A stretch of DNA of 21,103 nt. It comes from a virus. Numbering within the stretch: the first letter of the stretch is position 1; each line of letters starts with the position of its first letter. The notes under the pieces are model-generated. The model was not told where the DNA came from, did not search any database, and saw nothing but the letters and a program-made list of their open reading frames with translations. Of the stretch, positions 5,325-19,128 are shown piece by piece. Location: the IMG/VR virus record IMGVR_UViG_3300032288_003704, positions 1 to 21,103 of that record. One strand, 5' to 3'. The position numbers were made by a program, and so were the translations under genes.

Positions 5325-5918
5325 TTATGTTTTAAAAACAATCCAACCATTATTGTCTGGCCGTTTACCATTTGCAACTTGACACATAAGTTTTAACGAT
5401 AATGAATGCTTCTTACATCCTTGTCGTAGAGATAAAAATTCTTCTGATACACCTGCAGGCGATACAAACACACATTTAGTTGATCGATATGACGATCCGC
5501 TAATTCCTTTATTCCACGCAGGATGATTTGCTTTTTGTTTGCTATTTTTTAAGTTTCGTGTGTGTAACTCACTTTTTGGTTTACCTATTAATCGTTGCGC
5601 TATTAATTTTTTAGTAAAAACAGACATTCCTGCCGATCCTTCGCCGCCTTCTGTCCTATTTTGCAAAATGCCTGTTCCTATATCCTTGCGACCATACCAA
5701 CTAATTAATCGTCGCTCAATAGCAAATGCTCCAATTTCTGTTAAATTGGATTCTACAATTATGATATTTTTAAAATTAGGTGGTCTATTGACATTATAAT
5801 GCTTGCGCCAAGCTCGACCATTAATGCCTTTTCCTATATAATAAGGTGTGGAATCAGATTCTCTTAGATAGGCATAAACATAGAAGCCATTGGGGATATT
5901 TTTATTACTAAATAGCAT
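5325..5918 (-). CDS. GIY-YIG homing-type endonuclease
   Basis: GIY-YIG nuclease, 197 residues from the chosen start. The catalytic module is at the N-terminus: FYVYAYLRE (12-20) and YYIGKG (26-31) form the two signature strands, R35 follows in GRAWRKH, and the catalytic glutamate and helix are in [16 protein letters not shown], then [11 protein letters not shown]. The C-terminal third ([19 protein letters not shown], then a [19 protein letters not shown]-like segment) resembles the modular DNA-binding repeats of phage homing endonucleases. The frame is open to a GTG at 5978, but ATG 5918 is preferred because AAGGAA precedes it by 9 bases and the first 20 residues of the longer form look non-conserved. 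It lies directly upstream of the large terminase, a common insertion place for phage homing endonucleases. I see no sign that it splits a gene. Confidence 0.88.
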
Positions 5919-5981
5919 TGCTGATAGTTCCTTATAAACTGTTAGAGCCGGTGGATCTGCCAGGATCGCGATCGGCACTTT

Positions 5982-6007: not shown

Positions 6008-6541
6008 ATGTCAGGACACACTTTATTACTTAACAAGGATTACACTCCTATATCTGTATTACCATTGAGCGTAATTGATTGGCGCCATGCAGTCAAACTC
6101 ATGTATCTAGGAAGAATTCAAGTTATTGAAACGTATCCGGACTGGATAATCCATAGCGAAAAGCTATCGATTAATGTCCCCAGTGTGGCTATTACCAAAG
6201 AATACTTTAATTTTAAGCGTAAAGTAAATTTTACACGTTACAATATGTATCTGCGTGATCTTTATCAATGTCAATACTGCGAAGATACTTTTGATTTTGA
6301 TCAATTAACTATCGATCACGTAGTTCCTATTAGCCACGGCGGCAAAACTGAATGGACTAACTGTGTAACTAGTTGTAAGGCTTGTAATTGGCGTAAAGCA
6401 GATAAAGCGGTTATGAAACCAATACGCAAGCCTTATCGTCCAGATTATTGGGCATTAGCTGCTGCTTGGAAACATAGTCCATTTAGAGTTAAAGATCCTA
6501 AGTGGAATCAATACTTAGGTAGAGATAGAGAGGCTGCTTAA
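6008..6541 (+). CDS. HNH endonuclease, the only plus-strand gene
   Basis: HNH-family nuclease of 177 residues. The core spans residues 86-135. It has a zinc-binding CQYC (88-91) and CKAC (123-126) pair around the metal-binding beta-beta-alpha motif LTIDHVVPISHGG (D103-H104, H110) and the asparagine in TEWTNC (N118). An N-terminal domain of about 80 residues (LLLNKDYTPISVLPLSVIDWRHAVKLMYLG) is the type often found before phage and bacterial HNH domains. The C-terminal part is rich in Trp and basic residues. It runs against every other gene in the window. Its stop overlaps the stop of the 69-residue gene by 3 bases (tail to tail), and its start lies 90 bases from the GIY-YIG start. No strong Shine-Dalgarno is seen. 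It is probably a selfish endonuclease acquired separately; a role in packaging or host DNA attack is possible. Confidence 0.9.
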   Translation: MSGHTLLLNKDYTPISVLPLSVIDWRHAVKLMYLGRIQVIETYPDWIIHSEKLSINVPSVAITKEYFNFKRKVNFTRYNMYLRDLYQCQYCEDTFDFDQLTIDHVVPISHGGKTEWTNCVTSCKACNWRKADKAVMKPIRKPYRPDYWALAAAWKHSPFRVKDPKWNQYLGRDREAA

Positions 6542-6747
6542 ATTGGTTTTTCGCCTGTTAAATATGGCTTAGAGAACCACAGTTTAAACCATTCTTCAGT
6601 ACCAGGGCGAATATTATGAGTTTTCATAAGTTCGCCCTTTTCATTTCCAGTTACTGAAATATTACTGCCAGGAAAGCCTCGGTACTCCTGCATTACTGCA
6701 CGATTACCTATGCCTGCTAATAATTTTAACTCGTCAATGCTGTCCAT
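6538..6747 (-). CDS. Small conserved phage protein with N-terminal LAG motif
   Basis: A 69-residue protein of unknown function. The N-terminus (MDSIDELKLLAGIGNR) carries the L-x-x-L-x-L-A-G type motif shared with the accessory-block proteins. The C-terminal segment NIRPGTEEWFKLWFSKPYLTGEKPI (residues 45-69) is of a form I recall as recurrent in T4-like environmental phages. No catalytic residues or membrane segment are evident. It starts 23 bases after the nuclease gene with only a weak ribosome binding site, and converges on the HNH gene. The shared motif suggests association with the same head or virion assembly pathway as the larger LAG proteins, but this is inference. Confidence 0.7.
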   Translation of the reverse strand: MDSIDELKLLAGIGNRAVMQEYRGFPGSNISVTGNEKGELMKTHNIRPGTEEWFKLWFSKPYLTGEKPI

Positions 6748-6770: not shown

Positions 6771-7577
6771 TCACTCGGCTGACTTACACTTTTGTCTTTT
6801 AGCTTGAGTCAGTGCTCCAAAGTCTACAGGCCATTCACCGCCTACTGGTAGTTCTGTGACTCCAGGTGGAAAGGCAAATATAGTTCCTGATTTTTGTTGA
6901 ATTGCAGCGATACTAGCACGTACTCGAGTTAAATCATTACCTTGATTGCCTTCATGCTTAAAATACCAACCTGCTGCTTGCTTGGTATTTTGATTTATAA
7001 CAATTTTATAAAAGCCTGTAGGAACTACAACACCATTACCAATTCTTTTATCTGTGGCTGTATTATATACTGCGCCTACGTAGATATTATATGTGTTGTT
7101 TGTTTGTACTGCCCAACCACGCACACTAGTTTCAAGTAGTTTCCAAATGCCACGATTTAGTCCACCTAACTGCGGAAACATATTAGTCATTAAGAAACTT
7201 TCATATTCTACTTGCTGGTCCCAACTTAGATCGCCGTCTGGAGCAGCATGACCTTTATCATATCCTGTTCCAGCATAATCTTCAGGGCGAGGTCCGTTAG
7301 GGACACTAGCATCAGCAACAAATGCATTAGTGCGCGGCCAACATCCTAATGCGTTGGCTGGAGTTAATGTATATGTTACATAATTAGGAATTTTAGCGGC
7401 GGCATCATAACCGACAAAATATGCTCTACGACAAATTGGTGTCACTGCTTTGCTGGCCTGTGGGAATCCATATGGATTGTGTACTGCACATTTTTCCGGA
7501 GGAAGCGGTGCTGTTTGATTCCATGCAAATGCTGCGGGTGCTACTGTTAATAACAAGATTGAAAACCATTTTTTCAT
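6771..7577 (-). CDS. Secreted non-specific DNA/RNA endonuclease (NUC family)
   Basis: A 268-residue protein of the Serratia-nuclease-like beta-beta-alpha-metal family, which cleaves DNA and RNA with Mg2+. The signature GYDKGHAAPDGD (105-116) corresponds to the family DRGH motif: H110 is the general base and K108 replaces the usual Arg. The metal-binding Asn and downstream Glu lie in TNMFPQLGGLNRGIWKLLE (N132, N141, E149); N141 and E149 have the 8-residue spacing known for the family. A clear signal peptide opens the protein (MKKWFSILLLTVAPAAFA, cleavage likely after residue 18), so it is exported to the periplasm or outside. A Shine-Dalgarno AAAGGT precedes the ATG. It follows the 168-residue gene by 17 bases. 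Possible roles: destroying incoming DNA of competing phages, or scavenging nucleotides from lysed cells. Confidence 0.9.
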   Translation of the reverse strand: MKKWFSILLLTVAPAAFAWNQTAPLPPEKCAVHNPYGFPQASKAVTPICRRAYFVGYDAAAKIPNYVTYTLTPANALGCWPRTNAFVADASVPNGPRPEDYAGTGYDKGHAAPDGDLSWDQQVEYESFLMTNMFPQLGGLNRGIWKLLETSVRGWAVQTNNTYNIYVGAVYNTATDKRIGNGVVVPTGFYKIVINQNTKQAAGWYFKHEGNQGNDLTRVRASIAAIQQKSGTIFAFPPGVTELPVGGEWPVDFGALTQAKRQKCKSAE

Positions 7578-7594
7578 AATTGACCTTTATTTAA

Positions 7595-8101
7595 TTACCA
7601 AGCTCTACATGACCAATAACGAGCACTAGTGCGTGGGCCTGGATTTTTACAATTGTGTCTGGCTCTAAACGACTTACGGCGTTTAGGATTAGACTTTTTA
7701 ATTTTCATGTTAGGATCACCAAAGTTAACTTTAACTACATTACCTTTAGCGTTTTTAACATAAACTTTTGATTTTTTAACGTCGCCCTTCATTGGCTTGC
7801 CTAACGGAACATTGCGACCTTGATATTCGGCTTCTTCTAAATCATTGTTAGGACTTTTGTCATTGTTAATATCATTATAAGCAGTGGGCATGTTTGAATC
7901 TTCTGTTAAATATCCAACATGCGTTAAAATTCTCATAATTGTGTCGTCTGCTTCGATAACAATACCATCATCAAGTATATCAACTACATAAGTTTCAATT
8001 AGTGTTTCATCGCGAGCGATTTCTATTTCAAATATATCTCCAGTAATAGGATTCTCACAGGATTCTTCTACTAATTTAATATACTCTAATAAAGACTTCA
8101 T
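7595..8101 (-). CDS. Putative internal virion protein with capsid-targeting-like N-terminus and basic FRARHNC tail
   Basis: A 168-residue protein of unknown function made of three parts. Residues 1-13 (MKSLLEYIKLVEE) resemble the T4 capsid-targeting peptide (MKTYQEFIAEA), with a possible gp21-type cleavage site at LVE. Residues 17-60 are a small acidic beta domain (GDIFEIEIARDETLIETYVV, then DDGIVIEADD), a form I recall from other marine and freshwater phages. The last third is very basic and ends NPKRRKSFRARHNC...ARYWSCRAW, with H149, C151 and C165 as possible metal ligands and a role in DNA contact plausible. This tail recurs in phage proteins of unknown function (I think DUF5872-like, not certain). 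It overlaps the preceding gene by 4 bases (ATGA). A packaged, DNA-associated head protein is the best guess. Confidence 0.75.
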   Translation of the reverse strand: MKSLLEYIKLVEESCENPITGDIFEIEIARDETLIETYVVDILDDGIVIEADDTIMRILTHVGYLTEDSNMPTAYNDINNDKSPNNDLEEAEYQGRNVPLGKPMKGDVKKSKVYVKNAKGNVVKVNFGDPNMKIKKSNPKRRKSFRARHNCKNPGPRTSARYWSCRAW

Positions 8102-10071
8102 TTTTTTACTCCGGGGCGAGGGATAGCAGGAGATGTTGGGGCCTTTGGTGCTGCTGGTGCAGCTGGTTTGCTCTTTCCTCCCACTGGACCTTCATTGGGA
8201 CTAGGAGGATTAATACCTAAGTCTGCCGTAAAAATTTCAGCTTGACCAGTATCACCTTTTGGTCTTTGTGGATCAACTTCTCTTACTAAGACACTATCTA
8301 ATAGACTTTGCAATTCTTCGTCTAATTCAACTTCTTCTGCCATTGGATTGTCGCCTAACTTTGCTCCTGTTGGGTACATATCTTTTTTTCGGTGTAAGTC
8401 TGTACCTTGATGTATGATGCTGTCTACAGAGTGATATTCTTGGTTAGGATCATTGGCATACTCCATCATTTCATCATCGTCATTGCTGACCATAACAACT
8501 GGTTCTTCTGTATGTGAATCATGTCCCATATGGCCCATGCCAGCTAATTTAAGCATTTGTATTAATGCCTCGGCATCGCCGCCTTGAGCTGAAATAGTAA
8601 CACTTTTAGTCCCATCACTACTCATATTAGTACTAATATTCATTGAATCACGCTGATCCATGCCCATGTCGCCACATTCTTCAATACGACTTTCACTTAA
8701 TCCAGCTAAACGTGCTAGCTCACTTAAAGTATCGTCCATCACAGGCATTACTGTTTCTTGGAATTGGCGACTATGTCCCATTGACTCTAGCTCATCAGCA
8801 AAATGATCGCTCACCCAATGAAATGGATCACCTTCACGTGCTTTAGCAACGCCATATGGCATCTCACCATTGTCTATATAATAATCGTACAGTGCATTAT
8901 AAAGATCTTCATCTAAGTCAGCACCATTTAAAAAATTCTTTGTTTCATGTTTAAATCTTGTAACAATATGTTCTAAGTTACTACCAGCTTCTAACATGAG
9001 ACTTTCACTTACTTTAGATTTTTTATGAGCTTTCCAGGCAGTAGCATAGGCAATAGACTTCTCTTTAGGTGTTATTTTACCATCTTTGGCATAACCTTTT
9101 TTAATATGCTTGACCATACGTTCGGCTTTAGCACCTGGAGGTGCTTTTTCATTTATTTGTAAGCCACTTAATCTCAGTATATCATTGAATGCTTCTTCAA
9201 GTTCTTCTAGGTCTTCATCTAATTCTGATTCTGGTAATGTAGTACCCATTGGCCCTCTTTTTGCAATCTGATCTGGAGTATCTGTTCTTACATTAGTAGA
9301 TTGACCAAATCCCCCCTTAACAGCTTGAGGGTCATCTTTTGGTTGATCTACAGCATATTGCACTTTAGTTGGATCATAGCCGCCGCCATATGTTTTGCTT
9401 GGAAGTGCTGCTTGCCCCGAATCCTTATTGCCTGTTCCTATAGTAGGGTTACTGAAAATGCCGGACGTGGCTGTTTGTGCAGCAGGTGCAGCAGGGGCAG
9501 GAGCTGCGGCCGCAGGAGCTTCGGCAGGGCCTGCTTGAGGTTGAATATTTGGTGCCATGCCTGATATTTGAGCAAATGAATCTTGTGCTGCTTTGTCAGA
9601 CGCTGCTTTAGCAAATTGTCCGCCAATATTTTGTCCGGAACCGATGCTTGGATCAACTTCTGTAGAAGCAGCAGGAGCTGGAGCTGATGCCACAGTGGGT
9701 ATATTGGTGTTAGTATTTGTGCCTTGAGTTGGTTGAGCATCAGTGTTGGTCTGCCCGGCGAACCCAGCCGGAGGAGGGGCAGCATTAGCATCTCTCGCAT
9801 TAGCTGTTCTTTTATCGCCGCCTGCATAATTACTTGTTTGCGTTTGGGCAGCAGTGGCTTGATTAGCTGCTGCTGGTGCTGGTGCTGCTGGTTTTTTTAA
9901 ATCTGTACCGTAAGTAACAGTTTTATTAGTTTTTGGGTCTGTCCACTGAAAAGTCTTAGACCCGCCGGCAAGTGCTGTTTTACGTCCGGCTGCAAATGCA
10001 TCTTTAAAAGATTGTGCCGGTGCTGCCGGAGCTTCTTGCTCAAATAATTTTAAAAGTTTTTTCATATTCAT
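8098..10071 (-). CDS. Large mosaic virion-associated protein (capsid-targeting-like start, Ala/Pro linkers, three LAG motifs)
   Basis: A 657-residue protein built from short modules joined by low-complexity linkers. Residues 1-13 (MNMKKLLKLFEQE) look like a T4-type capsid-targeting peptide. Residues 21-60 hold a SFKDAFAAGRKTA / KTFQWTDPKTNKTVTY module, and 61-235 is a long Ala/Pro/Gln-rich, probably disordered stretch. A LAG motif follows (FNDILRLSGL, 295-304), then a lysine-rich helical module (PPGAKAERMVKHIKKGYAKD, KEKSIAYATAWKA, 311-348) and a Glu/Asp- and Tyr-rich module (364-430). Two more LAG motifs are LSELARLAGL (449-458) and LIQMLKLAGM (503-512), followed by an acidic region and a Pro/Ala tail. 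I recall several of these modules from unrelated phage proteins. No enzyme motif is seen. A Shine-Dalgarno AAGAG precedes the start. A late-like promoter octamer lies 49 bases upstream inside the previous gene. Confidence 0.8.
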   Translation of the reverse strand: MNMKKLLKLFEQEAPAAPAQSFKDAFAAGRKTALAGGSKTFQWTDPKTNKTVTYGTDLKKPAAPAPAAANQATAAQTQTSNYAGGDKRTANARDANAAPPPAGFAGQTNTDAQPTQGTNTNTNIPTVASAPAPAASTEVDPSIGSGQNIGGQFAKAASDKAAQDSFAQISGMAPNIQPQAGPAEAPAAAAPAPAAPAAQTATSGIFSNPTIGTGNKDSGQAALPSKTYGGGYDPTKVQYAVDQPKDDPQAVKGGFGQSTNVRTDTPDQIAKRGPMGTTLPESELDEDLEELEEAFNDILRLSGLQINEKAPPGAKAERMVKHIKKGYAKDGKITPKEKSIAYATAWKAHKKSKVSESLMLEAGSNLEHIVTRFKHETKNFLNGADLDEDLYNALYDYYIDNGEMPYGVAKAREGDPFHWVSDHFADELESMGHSRQFQETVMPVMDDTLSELARLAGLSESRIEECGDMGMDQRDSMNISTNMSSDGTKSVTISAQGGDAEALIQMLKLAGMGHMGHDSHTEEPVVMVSNDDDEMMEYANDPNQEYHSVDSIIHQGTDLHRKKDMYPTGAKLGDNPMAEEVELDEELQSLLDSVLVREVDPQRPKGDTGQAEIFTADLGINPPSPNEGPVGGKSKPAAPAAPKAPTSPAIPRPGVKK

Positions 10072-10074
10072 TTT

Positions 10075-12267
10075 TTATCTCTTGTGCCTTCCTGCTAACC
10101 ATAAAATATCGTTAAGTTCAGTATTTACCGACTCGGGTATCACCTTTTCTGCTTGCTTCTGTTTGATAATATCTCTAATTGGATCATCGGAATCTGTTGG
10201 AGATTTTTTAATTGGGATATATGGCTCGTAATTTTTTAAACTGTCTCTAGCAGCAGTAGCTTTCCAATCTATATTATCGTTAGCCGAAGGAGAAGTTTTA
10301 CCAACTTGGTCAATTGACGAAACTGGCTTTTCTCTTGCTGCTTTAGCTATATCCGAATATCGTTGCATTTGAGCCAACTTCTCAGCTGCGGCGGCTCTAG
10401 CGGCTGTTACACTTGGATCTTCCTTACTAAGATCTAGATTACTAGAAGGGCTAACTGTACTAGATGATGAATCTCCTGACGTAGTTGTATCGCTGCCTTT
10501 TGGTGCTTGTTGTAAATTAGATTGTGCTGCGATACGCTCACGCTCTCTACTAGCCGCGTCAGGTTCCCCTGCTTGTTTTAACTTCTTATCAGCCATATAT
10601 GCATCGTATGCTGTCTGTGTTTTTTTACCCCACTTACCATCAATGCCGTCACCTTCAGGACCAAAGCTACCTAGGTCGTATCCAGCAGCTTTTAATTTTT
10701 TCTGCATTGCTCTGACTTTATCGCTGCCCGGATTTGTTCTGGGAGGTTTATAGTCAGCTGGTAAATTACTATGAGGAACATCTAGTCCGTCTTTATCATC
10801 TGCCTTTGGTGGTTCAGGTGCTGGCTTTGGTGGTTCAGGTGCTGGCTTTGGTGGTTCAGGTGCTGGCTTTGGTGGTTCAGGTGCTGGCTTTGGTGGTTCA
10901 GGTGCTGGTTTAGGCTTATCTTTATCGCCTTTACCAAACAGATAGTCCCATAGTGTTGCTTCGTCAATTCCTACCGTGCGTTTTAAGCCCCGACCTGGTG
11001 AGTAGTCAAATGATGCTTTACCTGTATCTGGATCTGTTTCAACATCCGTGCCTTGAAGAACATCTGTTGCAGCACCGGCTATAGCCGTTCCTGCTGCTGT
11101 TTGTTTACCAACCGACTTCCAGTCAACTGGTCGTTTTGCTTCAATGTCTCTCGCAGTTGCTCGTTCAACGTCTGCAGCAGATCGCGTCCTCTCTACATCG
11201 GCTTTAGATTGTCTTGTAGTAGCAGCAGCATCGGCTTTAGATTGTCTTGTAGTAGCAGCAGCATCGGCTTTGGCCTGTCTGATCTTATTTTCAATATCTG
11301 CTTTAGTACCTTTGACCTCTGCCTGGCTTAGATCTTGCATTGAGGTTCTTGTTTTATAATCATCAATGTGTGCTAATCTTTGTGCAGGATCCATGTCCGG
11401 TGTTGTGCCGTATCTAACATCTTGATATGCACCTCTTAATTTTTTAGCTGCAGAAGTAGGAATATCTACTAACTCATTGCCGACTGCTGTCGCTGCTTTT
11501 TTTCCTGCTTGATATACGTTACCAATTTCGTCTGCTGCTTTACCAATTCCTGCTTTAGTGGCCTGGTATGCCGGAGGGATATTTTTTGCGGCCCATTGAC
11601 CACCAGCTTTAATAGCATTCCACCCAGTCTTTGCTGCATCAAGTCCTGTTTTTAACCAGGCCGGGGCTTCATCAATTCTTTGATTATTAATTTGATTGCC
11701 CGATTCGGTAAAAAAATTGCCTCGACGATCTTTATAGATAAAAATTGTATTCTTAATTTCATCTTCAGTCAATGAACACTTTTTTAGTTCGAGCTCTTCC
11801 TTAATAATTGCTGCATGTAATCTATTATTTTTCATAATCTTACTTTCTGGCATATAACTTGGGTCATAATCGGATCCACGTGCTTTCCAATAGCCGCCTG
11901 CTTCTTTATCTTTTTTAGCTGCTGCTGCAACTTCTTCGTCACTGGGTAAAAAACTTCCTGTTCGAATTTTATCTCTACCGGCTTGAATCGCAGTACCAGG
12001 TATAGCTAATATCGGAATGGCAGAGGCGGCTGCAATAGCACTACCTACACTATCGCCAGCAGTTGCTCTTTTTGCTGCATCAAGTCCTTGATATGCCATA
12101 TTTACACCAGGTAATACTTTTTTACCAATGGCCTTTACAGCAGAAGGAACTTTAGGAAGCTGGCTAGCTAATGCGCCCAATGCAGTTGTAGATGCTACGT
12201 CCCTAGCGGCTCCCACTGACTTGTCTACGCTGATTGTTCCTGCTTCAAAAATATTACTAATTTTCAT
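10075..12267 (-). CDS. Peptidoglycan-binding-domain protein, putative internal/ejected virion protein
   Basis: A 730-residue modular protein. The N-terminus MKISNIFEAG resembles a capsid-targeting peptide ending in a gp21-type I-F-E site. Residues 70-97 are Ala/Gly/Ile-rich and hydrophobic (GSAIAAASAIPILAIPG), possibly membrane-interacting. Residues 200-270 are amphipathic Ala/Lys/Gly-rich helices, like membrane-active or DNA-binding proteins. Residues 333-358 hold an 11-residue repeat (ADAAATTRQSK) and 453-487 five KPAPEPP repeats. A peptidoglycan-binding_1-type domain follows at about 513-560 (DKVRAMQKKLKAAGYDLGSF, DGKWGKKTQTAYDAY). The C-terminus SVNTELNDILWLAGRHKR nearly matches that of the GH19 protein encoded just upstream. 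It overlaps that gene by 4 bases. No catalytic domain is seen. A role in docking onto or crossing the cell wall, perhaps ejected with the DNA, is inferred. Confidence 0.8.
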   Translation of the reverse strand: MKISNIFEAGTISVDKSVGAARDVASTTALGALASQLPKVPSAVKAIGKKVLPGVNMAYQGLDAAKRATAGDSVGSAIAAASAIPILAIPGTAIQAGRDKIRTGSFLPSDEEVAAAAKKDKEAGGYWKARGSDYDPSYMPESKIMKNNRLHAAIIKEELELKKCSLTEDEIKNTIFIYKDRRGNFFTESGNQINNQRIDEAPAWLKTGLDAAKTGWNAIKAGGQWAAKNIPPAYQATKAGIGKAADEIGNVYQAGKKAATAVGNELVDIPTSAAKKLRGAYQDVRYGTTPDMDPAQRLAHIDDYKTRTSMQDLSQAEVKGTKADIENKIRQAKADAAATTRQSKADAAATTRQSKADVERTRSAADVERATARDIEAKRPVDWKSVGKQTAAGTAIAGAATDVLQGTDVETDPDTGKASFDYSPGRGLKRTVGIDEATLWDYLFGKGDKDKPKPAPEPPKPAPEPPKPAPEPPKPAPEPPKPAPEPPKADDKDGLDVPHSNLPADYKPPRTNPGSDKVRAMQKKLKAAGYDLGSFGPEGDGIDGKWGKKTQTAYDAYMADKKLKQAGEPDAASRERERIAAQSNLQQAPKGSDTTTSGDSSSSTVSPSSNLDLSKEDPSVTAARAAAAEKLAQMQRYSDIAKAAREKPVSSIDQVGKTSPSANDNIDWKATAARDSLKNYEPYIPIKKSPTDSDDPIRDIIKQKQAEKVIPESVNTELNDILWLAGRHKR
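10078..10131 (-). repeat. Copy 1 of the SVNTE...LAGR terminal tag sequence
   Basis: Codes the last 18 residues (SVNTELNDILWLAGRHKR) of the peptidoglycan-binding protein. It is an imperfect direct repeat of 12267..12323. It contains the late-like octamer GTAAATAC (in SVNTE), and its last codons plus stop supply Shine-Dalgarno-like bases (AGGAAGG, AAGAG) for the next gene start at 10071. Confidence 0.75.
10121..10128 (-). promoter_or_regulatory. Late-promoter-like octamer GTAAATAC inside the C-terminal tag codons
   Basis: On the minus strand, TCGGTAAATACTGAA encodes the S-V-N-T-E part of the tag. It lies 49 bases before the ATG of the 657-residue gene, a suitable distance for a T4-type late promoter with a short leader. 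The same sequence at a similar distance occurs before the 12267 start. Confidence 0.4.
10805..10909 (-). repeat. Five tandem 21-bp repeats encoding KPAPEPP
   Basis: Five head-to-tail copies of a 21-base unit (tttggtggttcaggtgctgg + c/t on the plus strand). The first four are identical and the fifth differs at its last base. They encode a rigid Pro-rich spacer (residues about 453-487) just before the peptidoglycan-binding domain. Near-perfect DNA identity suggests recent expansion by slippage, and copy number probably varies between relatives. Confidence 0.95.
11198..11280 (-). repeat. 33-bp direct repeat (two full copies plus a partial)
   Basis: Two identical 33-base units (11198-11230, 11231-11263) are followed by a partial, diverged third copy. 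They encode the 11-residue repeat ADAAATTRQSK, which fits an extended amphipathic helix or coiled coil in the middle of the peptidoglycan-binding-domain protein. Confidence 0.9.
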
Positions 12268-13754
12268 TTATTACGTCCTGCCAGTCTTAATATGTCGGTT
12301 AATTCCGTTTCAGTATTTACCGATTCTGGAATTCTAGTGTAACCACTACCAACTTTTTCACGATCCAAATTTGATTTAGTAGCAGGTGCTATTCCAAACG
12401 GATTTACTTCTGTATCTCTAAGAGACGAATCACTATCAGATTTTACCGGCGTTGTTAAATTCCCTTTTTGATTAGGACCTGGCTCATATTTAGGTGGTTC
12501 AGCAGTAGGTACTACAGATTTGGGTTCAACAAATTTAAGTTCAGCCTTTTTATCTGCATCATCTTTATCAAATTTACGCATAACATCTTTTACAGTCGGG
12601 CCAGTATAAACATATGTTTGTGGTCTACCTGCTATGTCGCGGGGCTGACTTGGAGGGGTGGATACTTTAGCATCTGCATCACTTGGTTGATCTGATGATG
12701 TTGATGGCTTACCTCCCTGTCCTGTTTTTGTTGTTGCGGCAGTAGTTGCTGCCACGGTTGCTGTAGCTGGTAACGAATCTAATTTTTCAACTTGAGCAAG
12801 AACCTGTTTTGCTCTTTTACTACCTGGAGCATAAAGAGGACCGCCAATGGCATAAATTACTTGTTCATGTGCCTCTTTTTGATTATTAACTGTTTTCTTA
12901 TGAATTCCGGCATTTTTTAGATATTGTACAGAAGCTGCATTTGCAAGTTGCGGATCTCTGAGCAGCATATCAGGATCTTTTACTAACGCTCCATTTAGAC
13001 CTAGATCTTTATCTATCCTAGCATAATTTGCTTTACCGGTAATTTGTATTGGCCCACGACCTCTATATTTGTAACCACCTATATGTCCATAAACTGTGTC
13101 ATAAAAAGCTTCTGGATTTTTCTTAAGTGCAGTAAGTTCAGCATCACTCAGTGCTAGTAATTTAGGTTTATCGTGAAAAACTTTTCTAATATGGGCATTT
13201 GTAGAACCGGCATAACTTTTTTCACCAACGTTTGCATTGCCAGATTCATGCCTGGCCTTAGCCATGATTGCTTTTCTAATGTATGGATCTTGAAAATTTT
13301 TTTCTACTTCGATTTCAAATGAAGATTTTTTTTTTGATTCTTCGTTCAAATCAGGTTCAGTCCACGGCCTATTATATTCTATATCGGCTTGTTTTTTAAT
13401 TTTTTCAACATTGTCTAGAGTATACGGAACTTTATATGCACCTAGATCATCTAACCATTGATCTAAATTTTCAGGTGCATCTTTACCTGTATATCCTTTA
13501 TAGACATCTTTGGCAAATTTTTCTGCCGCGGGTGCAGCTTTTTGAGTAACAAATTTTTCTCCTCGTTCGATATTTCTACCAACCGATTGGCCAAAATTCC
13601 AATCTTTTTCGCCTTTACGTTTTTGAAGTAAGTAATCGCCTAGTGTTGCACCTGCGGCTGTTCCGCCTAGTGCGGCCAATGCAAGAGGCAGAAACTCATC
13701 AAGTCTCTGCTCTTGCAACTGAGATTCACCAATTATGTCTTTGATTTTCATCAA
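12264..13754 (-). CDS. GH19 lysozyme/chitinase-domain protein with capsid-targeting-like N-terminus and LAGR tag
   Basis: A 496-residue protein with a GH19-type glycoside hydrolase core at about 145-325, able to cleave peptidoglycan or chitin. The catalytic acid is in AKARHESGN (E170). The substrate-cleft signature YRGRGPIQITGKANYARIDKDLG (230-252) and the MLLRDPQLANAASVQYLKNAG helix (263-283) are well preserved. The N-terminus MMKIKDIIGESQLQEQ looks like a T4 capsid-targeting peptide with an I-G-E cleavage site, followed by a hydrophobic Ala/Leu/Gly stretch (21-43). The C-terminal 170 residues are Pro/Thr/Ser-rich and disordered, ending SVNTETELTDILRLAGRNK, nearly the same as the next protein. 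It overlaps both neighbours by 4 bases. It could be the endolysin, but the N-terminus and tag point to a virion-packaged lysozyme. The enzyme family is secure; its location is inferred. Confidence 0.88.
   Translation of the reverse strand: MMKIKDIIGESQLQEQRLDEFLPLALAALGGTAAGATLGDYLLQKRKGEKDWNFGQSVGRNIERGEKFVTQKAAPAAEKFAKDVYKGYTGKDAPENLDQWLDDLGAYKVPYTLDNVEKIKKQADIEYNRPWTEPDLNEESKKKSSFEIEVEKNFQDPYIRKAIMAKARHESGNANVGEKSYAGSTNAHIRKVFHDKPKLLALSDAELTALKKNPEAFYDTVYGHIGGYKYRGRGPIQITGKANYARIDKDLGLNGALVKDPDMLLRDPQLANAASVQYLKNAGIHKKTVNNQKEAHEQVIYAIGGPLYAPGSKRAKQVLAQVEKLDSLPATATVAATTAATTKTGQGGKPSTSSDQPSDADAKVSTPPSQPRDIAGRPQTYVYTGPTVKDVMRKFDKDDADKKAELKFVEPKSVVPTAEPPKYEPGPNQKGNLTTPVKSDSDSSLRDTEVNPFGIAPATKSNLDREKVGSGYTRIPESVNTETELTDILRLAGRNK
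12267..12323 (-). repeat. Copy 2 of the SVNTE...LAGR terminal tag sequence
   Basis: Codes the last 19 residues (SVNTETELTDILRLAGRNK) of the GH19 protein. It is an imperfect direct repeat of 10078..10131. The CTGGCAGGACGT codons place an AGGA about 9 bases before the next ATG at 12267, so the tag DNA also acts as that gene's ribosome binding site. Confidence 0.75.
12313..12320 (-). promoter_or_regulatory. Late-promoter-like octamer GTAAATAC inside the GH19 C-terminal tag codons
   Basis: TCGGTAAATACTGAA on the minus strand, within SVNTE codons, 45 bases before the ATG of the peptidoglycan-binding-domain gene. It is identical to the sequence around 10121 and resembles T4 late promoters. Confidence 0.4.
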
Positions 13755-14560
13755 GCAAACTTATCTTTTTTAGGACGACCGCGGCCTTTTGGCGTGGTAT
13801 CAACATCTGCGCCTTTATCTACTGCATCATAATCACGCTCGTGTTTAACACCAGTTTTAGTAACTGTTTTCTTACCATGTGATGTTTTACCTTCTTTGTC
13901 ATCCATACGCTTTTTAGCGTCGGCTACTGTAGGGAAACCTTCACGTACTGGCTCCATGTTTCCATCACCGTCAAGGTCTGCCTTTTTAAGACCTTGCGCT
14001 CTGGCTTTCATTAAGTTTCCTGAAAATTTATTTCCTTCAGTTTTTTTCTTGGCGCCGGCAATTTTATCGGCATAGGTAATCTTATCTGGTGGTGGTGCCA
14101 GTTTGGCAAACTTCTGTTGCTTGGGTGTTAAAACATCTTCGTTGGCATCGGCTTCATCCATCTTGTCATGCTTCGCACGGATCATGGCCATTTTTTCTTT
14201 ACTAGCACCGTCACGGCCGGCTTTTTGTAGTGCCTTCATGCCAGTTTCGCCGTATTTCTTTTTGCCTAAGTATGCTTGTAGACCGCTTTCCTCTACTTCG
14301 CTTTCTTGCATTTTTTTAAAACCATGATATTTTTCGTTTAACTGTTTTTCAACTTTAGCAATTGCTTCAGCAATTGCTCCTTTATCTTTCTTATCTTTCT
14401 TCTTGCTTTCATGTTTGTGATCCTTACACTTACATTTTGCCATCGGCTTACCGCAACTGCCACAGTTCTTTGCAGCTTCAGTTAGAGATTCTTTAAAAGA
14501 ATCTTTTTTACCTTCTAACTGATTAATTTTGTTTAAGATATCATAGATATTGTTGCTCAT
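13751..14560 (-). CDS. Basic putative DNA-binding head protein (Cys cluster, EF-hand-like loop, AT-hook)
   Basis: A 269-residue, very Lys-rich protein of unknown function. Residues 1-29 (MSNNIYDILNKINQLEG...ESLTEAA) hold a helical start with a gp21-type L-T-E/A site. A CGSCGKPMAKCKC cluster (C33, C36, C43, C45) could bind zinc and is followed by a poly-charged His/Lys region. Residues 91-135 (GLQAYLGKKKYGETGMKALQ) and 145-170 (TPKQQKFAKLAPPPDKITYADKIAGA) are modules I recall in environmental phages. D195-L-D-G-D-G resembles a calcium-binding EF-hand loop. The C-terminal KGRGRPKKDKFA (258-269) is a typical AT-hook. It starts in a TAATG overlap with the upstream gene and overlaps the GH19 gene by 4 bases. 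A DNA-condensing internal head protein is the best inference. Confidence 0.75.
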   Translation of the reverse strand: MSNNIYDILNKINQLEGKKDSFKESLTEAAKNCGSCGKPMAKCKCKDHKHESKKKDKKDKGAIAEAIAKVEKQLNEKYHGFKKMQESEVEESGLQAYLGKKKYGETGMKALQKAGRDGASKEKMAMIRAKHDKMDEADANEDVLTPKQQKFAKLAPPPDKITYADKIAGAKKKTEGNKFSGNLMKARAQGLKKADLDGDGNMEPVREGFPTVADAKKRMDDKEGKTSHGKKTVTKTGVKHERDYDAVDKGADVDTTPKGRGRPKKDKFA

Positions 14561-15183
14561 TATTTCTTTCCTTTAACGGGTGGTAATTTTGGTTTATGTG
14601 TTCCTAAAGGACTAGTAGTACCTTGAGGTAATTGATTTGTAGTTTGTGCTGCTTTAGTTCTTTCAGATGCACGAGTAGAAGTTAATGCAGGATCAGATTC
14701 CAATGCAACCATCTTAGGTGATTGTTTATCTAATTCCTTGAGCATACTATCTTTACGCTTTTCGCCTACTAATTCTTGTCCGCCCGGAACATCTTTAAGT
14801 TCATTATCTAATAGCAATGCACCAGTATGATCTTTACCTAGCGCCTCTGCATAATCATTTTGATCTGCTTGCTGTTTACCATATACACATACCCACTCGG
14901 CTTGCATACCGGTGCGCTCTTTTAATAATTGAGCGATTTGAGGTGCAGTAGTTGGATATGCTACTGTAGCTTCAAATTGCCAGCATTCGCAAGCACCCCA
15001 TTTTGGGAACTCTCTGTGTTCTTGTATGGGTAAACTTTTTGCTTTACTAATACTTACAAGTTCGTAAGCATTAAGTGCATTCTTGATTTCTTCCATAATT
15101 TCATTTGGATCTTGTTTTGCAACTTTAATCCTAAAATCATATTGGGTATTTCTTTCTGAAATATAGGCTTGTAAACTTTTCAT
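14560..15183 (-). CDS. Putative internal virion protein with T4-like capsid-targeting N-terminus
   Basis: A 207-residue protein of unknown function. The start MKSLQAYISE-RN is the closest match in the window to the T4 internal-protein targeting peptide MKTYQEFIAEA, with a gp21-type I-S-E cleavage point after residue 10. Residues 14-102 form an alpha/beta domain (YDFRIKVAKQDPNEIMEEIK, FEATVAYPTTAPQIAQLLKE, AEWVCVYG) of a kind I recall in head-module proteins of environmental phages. The rest is a Pro/Lys/Thr-rich disordered tail. It is the first gene after small terminase, with a good Shine-Dalgarno (AAGAGGA, 8 bases before ATG), and it shares a TAATG overlap with the next gene. Its head location is inferred from the N-terminus and neighbours. 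Confidence 0.75.
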   Translation of the reverse strand: MKSLQAYISERNTQYDFRIKVAKQDPNEIMEEIKNALNAYELVSISKAKSLPIQEHREFPKWGACECWQFEATVAYPTTAPQIAQLLKERTGMQAEWVCVYGKQQADQNDYAEALGKDHTGALLLDNELKDVPGGQELVGEKRKDSMLKELDKQSPKMVALESDPALTSTRASERTKAAQTTNQLPQGTTSPLGTHKPKLPPVKGKK

Positions 15184-15704: not shown

Positions 15705-15712
15705 GTATTTAC
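15705..15712 (-). promoter_or_regulatory. Late-promoter-like octamer GTAAATAC in a small hairpin
   Basis: CGGTAAATACG on the minus strand, at the gp4-type stop codon and 4 bases before the gp16 ATG. The octamer is the loop of a short inverted repeat (GCTCG/CGAGC, 15701-15717). It is too close to the start to give gp16 a normal leader. Confidence 0.3.
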
Positions 15713-16143
15713 CGAGCTCGACCTTGGTGAAACATATCATTTTCTGTTACTACTCTGAATCTAAGTCCTTGTTGTTTACACCATGCATTAGCTGCTTCCC
15801 ATTTAAACTGATTTAATACAGCATAAGCTTTATCTCTTGTGCTCCTAGCCGCTTCTAGTGTAGTCTCGCGAGAAGGTTTTATTTCTATTAGTTCACCAAA
15901 TTTTTTTCCGTCTTTGGTTACATAGAAAATAACAAAATCGGGTATATAGATTGTATTTTTATTAGTAAACGGATTTTTATAAGGAATATGAACTGCTTCG
16001 TTGGCCCATTGCAGCACTGATGGGTTTTCGTCGCAAAAACGCATAAAAGTATGCTCCCATGAACTTCTAAAATGGGGTACTTTTTTTCCGACATATTTGT
16101 CCGGATTTAGCAGCTGATAAAACCCATTGGCAAATTTACTCAT
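15709..16143 (-). CDS. 4: Head completion protein, gp4-like (restriction-endonuclease fold)
   Basis: Homologue of T4 gp4 (also called gp50/65 in older maps), needed to finish DNA-filled heads before tail joining. It has 144 residues (T4 gp4 has 150). The family start FANGFYQLLNPDKYVG is clear, followed by RSSWEHTFMRFCDENPSVLQWANEAVHIPY. A PD-(D/E)xK nuclease-like core has E30, the IPDF aspartate D69 and E87-x-K89 in LIEIKPS, so DNA-end trimming is a plausible activity. It overlaps the 133-residue gene by 4 bases (ATGA) and immediately precedes small terminase, a logical packaging/head-completion pair. Confidence 0.9.
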   Translation of the reverse strand: MSKFANGFYQLLNPDKYVGKKVPHFRSSWEHTFMRFCDENPSVLQWANEAVHIPYKNPFTNKNTIYIPDFVIFYVTKDGKKFGELIEIKPSRETTLEAARSTRDKAYAVLNQFKWEAANAWCKQQGLRFRVVTENDMFHQGRAR

Positions 16144-16541
16144 GGAAGAATAGTTCTTAAGACATATTTGTTTAAAGTAGTTTGATTATTGATTCCCACA
16201 TAGCTTGTTCCAACTCTTTCAAAATTTAAGAACATGGCTGTGTAAGCATCTAATTCCCCAATTGATAATTTTTGAAATTCTTCTAATACAGACATAGGAT
16301 CAATTCCTTGCTTCACTGATGTATATATAACTGCACTAGCCAATGCCCTAGCTCCTATTTTAGTTTCAGCTACTTGTTCAAAATATGCAATTATTGCACT
16401 ATCAACGTTACTACTAACATTAACTGGAATATTAAAATAGTTATTGAAAAAACTTTGAACATCTTTAGTGTCAATTGAATTTACATTGATACCTTTTGTA
16501 TTGGTTGGATATTCTCTAATTGGAAGTGCAGTATTAGTCAT
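16140..16541 (-). CDS. Conserved small virion protein of T4-like phages
   Basis: A 133-residue protein I recognise as a recurrent member of the neck/tail module of environmental T4-like phages, with no named function. Residues 1-40 (LPIREYPTNTKGINVNSIDTKDVQSFFNNYF) lead into a helical middle (VDSAIIAYFEQVAETKIGARALASAVIYTSVKQGIDPMSVLEEF), then ELDAYTAMFLNFERVGTSYVGI and a short tail (YVLRTILP). It is shorter than relatives I recall, which carry an insertion before the ELDAYTAMFLN segment. The start is in a TAATG overlap with the 61-residue gene and the stop overlaps the gp4-type gene, so the three are probably translated together. A role in head-tail joining is inferred from neighbours. Confidence 0.75.
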   Translation of the reverse strand: MTNTALPIREYPTNTKGINVNSIDTKDVQSFFNNYFNIPVNVSSNVDSAIIAYFEQVAETKIGARALASAVIYTSVKQGIDPMSVLEEFQKLSIGELDAYTAMFLNFERVGTSYVGINNQTTLNKYVLRTILP

Positions 16542-16726
16542 TATTTGTCCTTAGCGACTCTTTGATTACTAGGAATAATTGGAACTTTAGTTCTTAAGGT
16601 TGAATCACTAAAGTTGCTCAGGTAAGTTTCGATAGTGCTAGTATCTTTATCTACTAATTCTTCTTTAGTTAACCCAGAACTATTTCCGAAAATTGTTGTA
16701 GTAAATATTGTGCTGTTAGTTTTCAT
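16541..16726 (-). CDS. Small hypothetical protein between virion genes
   Basis: A 61-residue protein of unknown function (MKTNSTIFTTTIFGNSSGLTKEEL...). It is polar, Ser/Thr-rich at the start, with one predicted helix region around residues 19-45 and a basic end. It has no signal peptide, membrane segment or catalytic motif. It is real by context: it fills the space exactly, starting 4 bases after the 535-residue gene and ending in a TAATG overlap with the next start. It may be a small virion or chaperone protein. Confidence 0.6.
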   Translation of the reverse strand: MKTNSTIFTTTIFGNSSGLTKEELVDKDTSTIETYLSNFSDSTLRTKVPIIPSNQRVAKDK

Positions 16727-16730
16727 AATA

Positions 16731-18338
16731 TTAAGGAATAGGAGGAGTTTGTTTACCGCCTATTTGCGACCCTGGTCCTGTTATAAAATCGGTGTTAGGA
16801 TTACCTTTACTAATAAATTTTGCTGCTTCTCTATTGGCCACTGTAACTTGTTTTGGAATAAATTTATTCGAATAAGGTGTTTGTTGTAAAGGATTGATAT
16901 CAACAACCTTTGTGTTACTTCCAATTTCAAATACTGGATTTTCTACGGGTGCAGCCAAAATTCCGCTATTGTCTAGACTAGCGGATTGTACCGATGCTGA
17001 TCTGTTTTCTGCAAGTTTTTGCAATGATTTGGCATAACTGTAGGTATCAGCTGGATTCTCAATGCCTTGTACAGCCAATGGAGAATTATAACCAATCTTA
17101 ACCACTTTGTTAATTGGACCTCCTGATAGTGATCCTGAACTATTTACTATAATACCGGATGCTAGTCCTACTGCGGCGCCAACAGACGGATTTCCAGCCA
17201 CAGCAGTTGCGCCAATAAAACCTATACCAGCGGCTGCAATACCGGACAAACTTTTACCATTGCTAATAATACTCCCTGAGGATGCTCCCGGAGAGGCCGG
17301 AGTTAATGCAGTAGGCGGCGATGTTCTTGCTGCCCTGGCTCCGTTATATGGCACAAAAAATTTATCGCGAGGATCTCTTCCGGCTATCATATCCAATCCA
17401 GCCTGGACTAATTCGCCCTTTGCTAAGCCAGTTAAATTTATATTTTTATTTTTATCGTAGCTACGTAAAAGTTTAAACGCTGCTGCACCATAATTACCTC
17501 CAGTAGCGTCGCGAGATATTTCATCAGCTGCTGATAATATCCCACCCGGCCCTAATATTGAATTTGTACCTCCTCCTAATGCACTCAATGGGCTCGGGGA
17601 TTTATCATAATGCAAATCTGCAAATCCTTTAACTGTATTTGAAGTTACATAACCACTGGCATATAATATACTTTCGTACGAGATAGTCATAGTATGATCT
17701 AATGTTGAACTGGCGCTCTCACTACCATGACTACCATGACTAAAATTAGTAATAATTGGGTTTATAAGAGTATATTCGCTAAATTGTCTTTTATATAAAC
17801 TATAAATTCTAATAGATTGAAAATACTTATTATCTCCGCCCGAGGATCTTGGATGGTATCCAAAACGATTTAACACATCTCTTGGGCCTGGCTGATATTT
17901 GTGATTCTGATAATAATTAGGATTAACCGCCCCACTGCTATCTGCAAATCCATTATCTGCATCTCGATAATAATAGTTATAATAGTCAAACCATAAGTTG
18001 CGAACTACATTAGACATATCGTCATGAAACGCAATATTCACTGAATCATATTTAATTTTAGTTTGTACAACATTTGGTCTATTGTAACTATTAAGAACTT
18101 TAGTATCAAAAGTAAACTTTGGTAAATCAACATTTTTTACTAACATACCAGCTTCTAATTGTTGATCCCTACCTACAAAAGTTAACGAAGGATTAATGTC
18201 AAAGAATACATGATATAAAAACCCATGCTTAGGTGCTAGTGCATAATTATAACTTCTAAATAATTTAGAAGCATGCGTATAATCTTTAAGATTATCGCCG
18301 GCAGCTATCTGTTTAAAAAATCCGTCAAATATTCCCAT
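16731..18338 (-). CDS. Virion structural protein with tail-tube-like N-terminal half
   Basis: A 535-residue structural protein conserved in environmental T4-like phages. Residues 35-250 look like a tail-tube-type beta domain: GFLYHVFFDINP (39-50), LVKNVDLPKFTFDTKVLNSYN (66-86), IKYDSVNIAFHDD (95-107), an aromatic stretch LWFDYYNYYYRD (115-126), then FQSIRIYSLYKRQFSEYTLINPIITNFSH (173-201). This pattern fits tube-like or tube-capping proteins, so a tube-initiator/terminator role is possible. The C-terminal half is Gly/Ser/Ala/Pro-rich with a long hydrophobic Gly/Ala segment at 365-398 that could be membrane-interacting. It follows tail tube, separated by a strong intrinsic terminator, so it must have its own promoter. 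No Shine-Dalgarno is visible before the ATG; the leader is TTGACATAAATATTATT-ATG. Confidence 0.75.
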   Translation of the reverse strand: MGIFDGFFKQIAAGDNLKDYTHASKLFRSYNYALAPKHGFLYHVFFDINPSLTFVGRDQQLEAGMLVKNVDLPKFTFDTKVLNSYNRPNVVQTKIKYDSVNIAFHDDMSNVVRNLWFDYYNYYYRDADNGFADSSGAVNPNYYQNHKYQPGPRDVLNRFGYHPRSSGGDNKYFQSIRIYSLYKRQFSEYTLINPIITNFSHGSHGSESASSTLDHTMTISYESILYASGYVTSNTVKGFADLHYDKSPSPLSALGGGTNSILGPGGILSAADEISRDATGGNYGAAAFKLLRSYDKNKNINLTGLAKGELVQAGLDMIAGRDPRDKFFVPYNGARAARTSPPTALTPASPGASSGSIISNGKSLSGIAAAGIGFIGATAVAGNPSVGAAVGLASGIIVNSSGSLSGGPINKVVKIGYNSPLAVQGIENPADTYSYAKSLQKLAENRSASVQSASLDNSGILAAPVENPVFEIGSNTKVVDINPLQQTPYSNKFIPKQVTVANREAAKFISKGNPNTDFITGPGSQIGGKQTPPIP

Positions 18339-18343
18339 AATAA

Positions 18344-18351
18344 TATTTATG
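18344..18351 (-). promoter_or_regulatory. Late-promoter-like octamer CATAAATA after the tail-tube terminator
   Basis: TTGACATAAATATTATT on the minus strand, directly after the terminator T-run and 5 bases before the ATG at 18338. The upstream terminator makes a promoter here likely, but the octamer is so near the start codon that a leaderless or alternative start would be needed. Confidence 0.35.
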
Positions 18352-18353
18352 TC

Positions 18354-18379
18354 AAAAAAAACCCGGCCAAAGCCGGGTT
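18354..18379 (-). terminator. Intrinsic terminator after tail tube gene
   Basis: On the minus strand: AACCCGGC, 4-base loop, GCCGGGTT (perfect 8-bp GC-rich stem, 18360-18379) followed by a run of T residues (18354-18359 and the adjoining stem Ts). It starts 20 bases after the tail tube stop codon. This is the clearest Rho-independent terminator in the window and separates sheath/tube transcription from the rest, which would allow high tail-tube expression. Confidence 0.95.
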
Positions 18380-18398
18380 AATTACAAAACAAAAAATA

Positions 18399-19049
18399 TT
18401 AAGTGCGCTGCATACCGGTAGCGGCTAACTGATCTCCTAGTCTACGACCTACCGCAGTTCCTACACCTGTACCTAACGGTGTTTGAATAGCATTATCGTA
18501 TTGAATTGTGAGAGTAATCATGACAGGATCATTGGCGCTATAATCCATGTCGCCGTAATTAACTTGTGATAGGAAAGCTCCATATAGTTCCCATGTTTCT
18601 AATACATTTGCAGCCATTGATCCTGTTGGATTATTACTATTACCGCCATCTAGCATTTCAAATTTTAAAATAAATTTATAGTCAGCTCCTACTCCTGCAC
18701 TAGCCTGTTCCATAAAATCAAATTGTTTCTGAATTTGTGTTCCGATTAATTTACTTACATTGTTTCCTGCATCGTCACGTAACGTAACAGTTACTGGTTC
18801 CCATGTTGGCTTGCCAATTAAATTTATTTTACTGTTGTAAACATCAATTGGAAAGGTATTAAAATTTACATTCGGCCGGCCAATAGTTGCTACTTGTTTA
18901 GTAAGATCTACTGTACCTACCGTACCTCCAAAATTTTGGAATTCGGCCCGAAATCTATATTTTAATTTCGGCATTAATAAACCTTGAGCTCCGCCTGTTT
19001 CGCCGGTAGCTAAAGGAACTGTAAATCTATTCAATGAACCTATTGCCAT
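18399..19049 (-). CDS. 19: Tail tube protein (gp19-like)
   Basis: The hexamer-forming inner tube protein of the contractile tail, 216 residues (T4 gp19 has 163). Family features: LMPKLKYRFRAEFQNFG (25-41) opening the beta barrel, QVATIGRPNVNFNTFPIDVYNSKINLIGKPTWEPVTVTLRDD (52-93) with the strand/loop typical of gp19-like tubes, and a late segment YGAFLSQVNYGDMDYSANDPVMITLTIQYDNA. The extra length lies in the N-terminal arm and the C-terminal Gly-rich tail. It has a good Shine-Dalgarno (AGGAG before AATAAC-ATG), follows the sheath gene, and is followed by a strong terminator: the expected gp18-gp19 pair of high-copy tail proteins. Confidence 0.93.
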   Translation of the reverse strand: MAIGSLNRFTVPLATGETGGAQGLLMPKLKYRFRAEFQNFGGTVGTVDLTKQVATIGRPNVNFNTFPIDVYNSKINLIGKPTWEPVTVTLRDDAGNNVSKLIGTQIQKQFDFMEQASAGVGADYKFILKFEMLDGGNSNNPTGSMAANVLETWELYGAFLSQVNYGDMDYSANDPVMITLTIQYDNAIQTPLGTGVGTAVGRRLGDQLAATGMQRT

Positions 19050-19066
19050 GTTATTCTCCTATTATA

Positions 19067-19076
19067 GGTATTTACC
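19067..19076 (-). promoter_or_regulatory. Late-promoter-like motif GGTAAATACC before tail tube
   Basis: GGTAAATACC on the minus strand, 17 bases before the tail tube ATG, in the 79-base gap after the sheath gene. It is similar to the octamers at 10121, 12313 and 15705. It resembles T4 late promoters but leaves a short leader; the Shine-Dalgarno is just downstream. Confidence 0.4.
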
Positions 19077-19094
19077 ATATTTTTTGTCAGGTAA

Positions 19095-19116
19095 ATGGAG
19101 TCATATATGACTCCAT
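19095..19116. repeat. Perfect 22-bp palindrome between sheath and tail tube genes
   Basis: ATGGAGTCATATATGACTCC + AT is a perfect inverted repeat lying just after the sheath stop codon. It is followed on the minus strand by TTTACCTGAC rather than a T-run, so it is at most a weak terminator. It may be an mRNA-stabilising hairpin or a protein-binding site upstream of the late-like motif. Confidence 0.75.
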
Positions 19117-19128
19117 AATATACCTACA

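Follow-up and report, generated by a model that had tools for sequence, protein, structure and literature searches.

Putative head-packaged wall enzymes with a scaffold-like tail in a fixed gene slot of a PA5oct-related phage

Two adjacent genes at positions 10075-13754 of a phage genome fragment in all likelihood encode modular wall enzymes that are packaged inside the phage head. The analyzed stretch, here called the window, is the IMG/VR record IMGVR_UViG_3300032288_003704 with 21,103 bases. Since this record is a fragment of a larger genome, the lysis genes of the phage are out of view. Head packaging is well supported by T4-like N-termini, protease-type sites, a scaffold-like tail, a locus among head genes and near-identical N-termini on virion proteins of the Pseudomonas jumbo phage PA5oct. 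It appears likely, although less so, that the two proteins are head cargo from which the tags are removed and which leaves with the DNA and cuts the wall at entry. More generally, contractile-tailed jumbo phages may possess a plug-in wall-enzyme cassette, in which a fixed slot holds a T4-like head-entry peptide, a cleavable tail copying the scaffold and a freely swapped enzyme between them; we give this generalization an even chance.

Judged by its sequence, the window comes from a T4-like jumbo phage with kinship to PA5oct. Sequence comparison revealed 55% identity between the terminase large subunits of both phages, and the gene order from sheath to terminase is the same as in PA5oct. The gene content of the window comprises a tail sheath protein, two tail tube proteins, a gp4-type head closure protein, the terminase, SSB and UvsX. 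The surroundings of the two genes, which we refer to as the slot, are as follows.

3754-5316, minus strand: terminase large subunit, 55% identical to PA5oct; marks the packaging locus
15709-21102, minus strand: gp4-like head closure protein, two tail tube proteins and tail sheath, as in a contractile-tailed phage
13751-14560, minus strand: slot border, core-like protein with the start NNIYDILNK and the AT-hook-like end GRGRPKKDKFA
14560-15183, minus strand: slot border, homologue of the PA5oct structural protein gp282 (ESI-MS/MS)
8098-10071, minus strand: opposite slot border, core-like protein in which an L..(I/L)..L(A/S)G motif occurs three times internally, with a conserved ERMVKHIKKGY domain
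7595-8101, minus strand: conserved neighbour with the CTS-like start MKSLLEYIKLVEES
1736-3184, minus strand: virion structural protein family with the terminal motif of the slot proteins (EELSIIKWLSGLGKK)

Several further observations concern this neighbourhood. The AT-hook-like C-terminus of the 13751-14560 protein is kept in relatives and scores below the Pfam cut-off. The conserved domain of the 8098-10071 protein spans 48 residues (ERMVKHIKKGY...YATAWKA) and is 80-90% identical across many contigs. Among the head genes lies one for a DNA/RNA non-specific endonuclease (6771-7577, minus strand) that seems to have a signal peptide. At the same position relatives encode another short protein, whose start is likewise signal-like, which ends in AREYYGEAKQSWCN and may be a member of the endonuclease I family; this position may be a second swap slot. 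A GIY-YIG-like endonuclease gene (5325-5978, minus strand) and an HNH endonuclease gene (6008-6541, plus strand) both adjoin the terminase gene, the latter being the sole sizeable plus-strand gene of the window. Finally, a 69-amino-acid protein (6538-6747, minus strand) carries a LAG motif at its N-terminus (MDSIDELKLLAGI) and has relatives of up to 90% identity.

Both open reading frames of the slot, described by the sequence-only reading as a GH19 enzyme and a neighbour with a peptidoglycan-binding domain, were confirmed on the minus strand, with a GH19 match at the Pfam cut-off and a weak peptidoglycan-binding domain. Their features are listed below, where an arrow marks a predicted cleavage site.

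12264-13754, minus strand: slot protein 1, GH19 wall enzyme with putative head-targeting ends, 496 amino acids; TTG start, ATG one codon on
13725-13751, minus strand: CTS-like N-terminus MKIKDIIGE with the predicted prohead protease site IGE↓S
13638-13694, minus strand: Ala/Gly hydrophobic segment FLPLALAALGGTAAGATLG, residues 21-39, Kyte-Doolittle value 1.47
12780-13298, minus strand: GH19 catalytic domain, residues 153-325, with the invariant Glu170 and a second Glu at +8
12267-12332, minus strand: IPE↓S site and scaffold-like tail SVNTETELTDILRLAGRNK
10075-12267, minus strand: slot protein 2, partner with the weak peptidoglycan-binding domain, 730 amino acids
12244-12267, minus strand: CTS-like N-terminus MKISNIFE↓A
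11929-12153, minus strand: Ala/Gly hydrophobic hairpin region spanning residues 39-113; its identity to relatives is 54-64%, and in one of them (L138) it is joined to GH19
10804-10908, minus strand: linker of five PAPEPPK repeats
10558-10722, minus strand: PG_binding_1 domain, residues 516-570, weak; replaced by LysM in relatives
10078-10140, minus strand: IPE↓S site and scaffold-like tail SVNTELNDILWLAGRHKR

The Pfam family PF00182 matched residues 226-278 of slot protein 1 with 24.9 bits, just below the cut-off of 25.5; in the genome search the score was exactly 25.5. The protein also matched the PHROG endolysin family 181 (E=4e-15). Structure prediction for the whole protein was confident at about residues 142-326 only (mean pLDDT 55), and Foldseek retrieved GH19 endolysins as the best solved matches of the predicted GH19 domain. 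Thus, the predicted fold and the catalytic glutamates assign slot protein 1 to GH19, with a Pfam score of 24.9-25.5 at the cut-off. A dN/dS ratio of about 0.07-0.2 for the GH19 domain indicates strong purifying selection. In slot protein 2 the match to PF01471 (E=9e-4, 19.8 bits) remained under the cut-off of 23. Each window protein has one recognized domain, and some slot proteins of relatives have two. The hydrophobic Ala/Gly segments attributed to both proteins were found at residues 21-39 of the GH19 protein, as listed, and at residues 76-94 of its partner (Kyte-Doolittle value 1.74). In L138 a single polypeptide combines GH19 with the hydrophobic region of the second protein. This fusion suggests that the two window proteins work together. 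Together with the GH19 catalytic residues and the LysM domain that takes the place of the weak peptidoglycan-binding domain in relatives, it is in agreement with the proposed division of labour in which one protein cuts and the other binds.

The N-termini were analyzed with a strict CTS motif of nine residues, M[KR]xx[DENSQA][FILVY][ILMFV]xE, which was written after examples had been seen. In a relative of 354 kb (G008) the motif was found at 9 of 526 gene starts compared to 0.19 expected, with a maximum of 3 in 2000 permutations; the corresponding ratio of about 48-fold is optimistic because the motif was fixed post hoc. None of the 1520 internal Met of this genome showed the motif, and this zero count speaks, together with the T4 precedent, for a real signal. 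The start of the window GH19 protein (MKIKDIIGE↓S) matches the strict motif. The partner (MKISNIFE↓A) deviates from the strict spacing, but its I-x-E↓A site is present. At the start of both proteins there is thus a short MK peptide with L/I-x-E at its end, as known from T4. The capsid-targeting-like starts noticed before hold for both, in the case of the partner with regard to the site only. The T4 proteins IPII and IPIII start with MKTYQEFIAE↓A, which is a precedent independent of the motif design. T4 gp21 cleaves behind L/I-x-E, and for packaging the ten N-terminal residues of IPIII are enough (PMC9026906). Two PA5oct proteins starting with MKINDIITE and MKIKDILVE are close matches, and both are marked ESI-MS/MS in the notes of the GenBank record, the source of all mass spectrometry marks used here. 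For a looser CTS pattern the association with detection in PA5oct was not significant (6/93 versus 6/170, p=0.22). Other CTS-like-tagged proteins of the 354-kb relative (L102, L106, L107, L109) contain HD_4, amidoligase, LysM, GGACT plus GH19 and putative metallopeptidase domains, which suggests a broad set of head cargo.

At the C-terminus the two window proteins share the almost identical tails recognized in the sequence-only reading, IPE↓SVNTE..L.DIL.LAGR.K, with 17 of 21 aligned residues identical. Nine of these 17 identities are encoded by different codons; therefore, the shared tail is maintained by selection at the protein level and does not stem from a recent copying of DNA. A tail of the form [VI]PES[VI]N.E..DIL.LAGR.K closes most slot proteins of the relatives. 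It is missing in the L010/L159 type and degenerate in L005. None of the C-termini of the 354-kb relative carries a LAG tail, so this tail is not universal.

The tail resembles the end of the scaffold protein, whose gene in this clade is flanked by those of the gp21-type protease and of the major capsid protein. All 80 scaffold homologues fetched, representing 42 distinct C-termini, end in E[IFL]KRLAGL; the scaffolds of PA5oct, Phosso and Atu_ph07 end in LRRLAGIK, LRRLAGIEK and LKRLAGIKK, respectively. A matrix trained on the cargo tails alone was used to rank C-termini. The scaffold came 2nd of 263 C-termini in PA5oct, 1st of 54 in Phosso (53 open reading frames of a 41-kb region plus the scaffold) and 3rd of 172 in the relative G005. 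Most cargo tails are opened by a [VIL]-x-E↓S/A/T site, and a minority is without it. In scaffolds an L-x-E↓S site precedes the LAG motif, and the capsid protein has L-M-E↓A/T/S. A gp21-type prohead protease with 55% identity to PA5oct gp21 is present in G005; the window ends short of that region. In PA5oct a strict LAG pattern was not significantly associated with mass spectrometric detection (3/93 versus 2/170), and the link of LAG to detection was loose (p=0.005, unadjusted). The PA5oct scaffold itself carries no virion-detection mark in its record, as expected for a protein that is degraded.

Relatives were collected with the terminase and neighbouring genes as bait. This yielded 20 genomes including the window in which the locus is complete from the 13751-14560 gene to the 8098-10071 gene; in one of the 20 (L143) the contig stops inside the second gene of the slot and the far border lies outside it. 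All slot-bearing relatives are metagenome contigs. A wall-acting protein occupies the slot in 20 of 20 genomes. Its class is GH19 in six, SLT-type in nine, a lambda-R-like endolysin with GDSL in two, another transglycosylase in one and GDSL only in two, the GDSL-only slots (once with LysM) being without a proven wall-cutting domain. In five homologous pairs of different enzyme class the flanks are 40-65% identical and the catalytic region 21-37%, whereas a same-class control pair is 80/81/81% identical throughout. On the tree of a neighbour gene the enzyme class requires 9 changes compared to a shuffled mean of 9.8. Consequently, the identity contrast and the count of class changes indicate that the enzyme was swapped while the frame was kept. 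A search for direct homologues of either window protein in the phage collection gave domain-level matches only, and an IMG/VR pattern search with either protein returned just one near-identical contig. Among the matches listed, terminase-type loci below about 78% identity have an empty slot or a fused core protein and no match to the window GH19 or peptidoglycan-binding protein. In PA5oct the equivalent slot holds no hydrolase; at its position lies gp281, without a detected domain. This virion protein (L083:18440-19936) starts with MFNINDILRLAG, followed by VEETASAGASSAGG, a sequence similar to the cut site in the capsid protein. We found no description of the slot or the tail in the open-access literature searched.

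The simplest reading of these sequence facts, which we hold to be somewhat more likely than not, is that the tail docks like a scaffold C-terminus and is then cut off. During head assembly the CTS-like N-terminal peptide would join both proteins to the prohead core, as in T4, and the LAG tail would dock at the docking place of the scaffold C-terminus. The sites suggest that a gp21-type protease would then cut after I-G-E, I-F-E and I-P-E and remove both ends, leaving the mature enzymes inside the head. These would exit with the DNA, and their hydrophobic segments would help them to reach or cross the membrane. The partner would hold the wall and the GH19 domain would cut it locally, easing entry. 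Release at entry and a local wall opening comparable to T7 gp16 are likely in view of the enzyme class and of gp16 itself (PMC5380687). Since the packaged IPs and Alt of T4 are delivered to the cytoplasm (PMC9026906, PMC3012670), an additional step would be required to get to the wall, and the hydrophobic segments are candidates for it. A wall enzyme in the cytoplasm is useless unless it reaches the periplasm, which counts against a role in entry.

This destination of the T4 proteins also fits an explanation in which the proteins are packaged but are no entry enzymes and act at a later time or another place. They could, for example, be structural proteins of the core or scaffold with an enzyme domain that serves lysis, superinfection exclusion or the defence against rival phages. 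Such cargo would share all the packaging evidence, and in the 354-kb relative the tagged cargo comprises numerous domains unrelated to the wall (HD_4, amidoligase, GGACT), so that packaging alone implies no entry role. We nevertheless regard this explanation as unlikely, as a wall-acting protein of whatever family in 20 of 20 slots points to a wall function for the slot. A mere chance or low-complexity similarity of the ends without shared function is hardly credible. The motifs are short and the patterns were set after inspection, but synonymous codon changes lie beneath an unchanged tail, the ends are conserved over many genomes with different enzyme domains, and the permutation tests and the 80 of 80 scaffold C-termini argue against it as well.

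Contractile-tailed phages usually also carry a baseplate lysozyme. Tail or baseplate lysozymes, or tail-associated virion proteins, would be in line with the sheath and tube genes located 3-7 kb off in the same operon direction and with the SLT domains of some slot proteins, which match "lytic tail fiber" PHROGs. This assignment is improbable in view of the tags and the tail, which indicate the prohead core. Furthermore, the Pfam scan of the window revealed no baseplate-hub or needle domain with lysozyme of the T4 gp5 type, and PA5oct encodes its baseplate hub/tail lysozyme gp350 elsewhere. Ordinary lysis endolysins with odd ends are a distinctly improbable alternative, even though the GH19 protein matches PHROG endolysin families and the 21-kb fragment shows no other lysis gene. 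A lysis endolysin would be compact, untagged and part of a lysis cassette; slot protein 1 has 496 amino acids, predicted head tags on both ends and a place in a head and packaging locus where neither a holin nor a spanin was identified. The length of slot proteins goes up to 1489 amino acids, with several domains. The sequence-only reading held that typical endolysins lack these features and proposed to look for a separate one. The 354-kb relative contains, as a control, a compact endolysin-like GH19 protein of 208 amino acids without tag or tail, and in addition a CTS-tagged GGACT plus GH19 protein and a GH19 protein of 1088 amino acids. PA5oct, too, has its own annotated endolysins. A search of eight relatives for other lysins (PF00959, PF01464, PF13539) gave only one T4-type lysozyme.

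Several known systems come close to the preferred reading, packaged wall enzymes acting at entry. With T4 IPI-III and Alt the window proteins share the N-terminal MK peptide ending in L/I-x-E, and relatives of the window share the gp21-type protease and the gene order gp21, scaffold, major capsid protein. T4 Alt is also cut at its C-terminus, a precedent for cleavage at both ends (PMC5694885). In contrast, the T4 IPs are DNA-binding or anti-restriction proteins without a wall-cutting role, T4 gp22 lacks the LAG motif at its end, and a shared scaffold-like tail of the cargo is not described in the T4 literature searched. T7 gp16, SP6 gp36 and phiKMV gp36 are likewise large internal proteins with a wall-cutting domain, and in relatives the SLT domain of some slot proteins matches PHROG 342 (internal virion protein with endolysin domain). 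These podoviruses have an extensible tail (PMC5380687), whereas the window has sheath and tube genes. The window GH19 protein is not homologous to T7 gp16 and has no match in PHROG 342, which only SLT-bearing relatives match. The original proposal of head-ejected wall-opening proteins that act as gp16 does is supported in part. Packaging is backed well by the tags, the protease-type sites, the scaffold-like tail, the head locus and the PA5oct virion N-termini; ejection and local wall opening would be the last step.

Polyvalent proteins, which are multidomain proteins, are likewise predicted to be packaged in the head and injected. Some of them contain lysozyme domains, for which a role in breaching the wall has already been postulated (Iyer et al. 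2017, PMC5512222). The window type differs from them by a putative loading tag at each end, the fixed slot and the wall theme. In engineered P22 loading, cargo is brought in via the C-terminal part of the scaffold and is freed inside by cleavage (PMC9962691); there a long scaffold piece is used, whereas the window tail is natural and has about 20 residues. The GH19 endolysins SPN1S and KTN6 gp46, the best Foldseek matches, share the GH19 fold but are compact, while the window GH19 protein has 150-170 extra residues on each side and the putative head tags.

Head-borne wall enzymes are documented for the podoviruses T7, SP6 and phi29, and one review places the enzymes of its contractile-tailed examples in the baseplate (PMC5380687). 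If the entry reading is true, contractile-tailed phages use a second route to the same end, head-carried wall cutters having so far been found mainly in short-tailed phages. The swapping of enzymes at one slot would then be a natural experiment on the wall that each phage must cross. A tail copying the scaffold end would offer a simple and testable signal by which large phage heads are loaded with enzymes, and in many uncultured phages head cargo could then be recognized from sequence. If the cassette reading holds as well, the tail would be a natural general cargo-loading signal for such heads.
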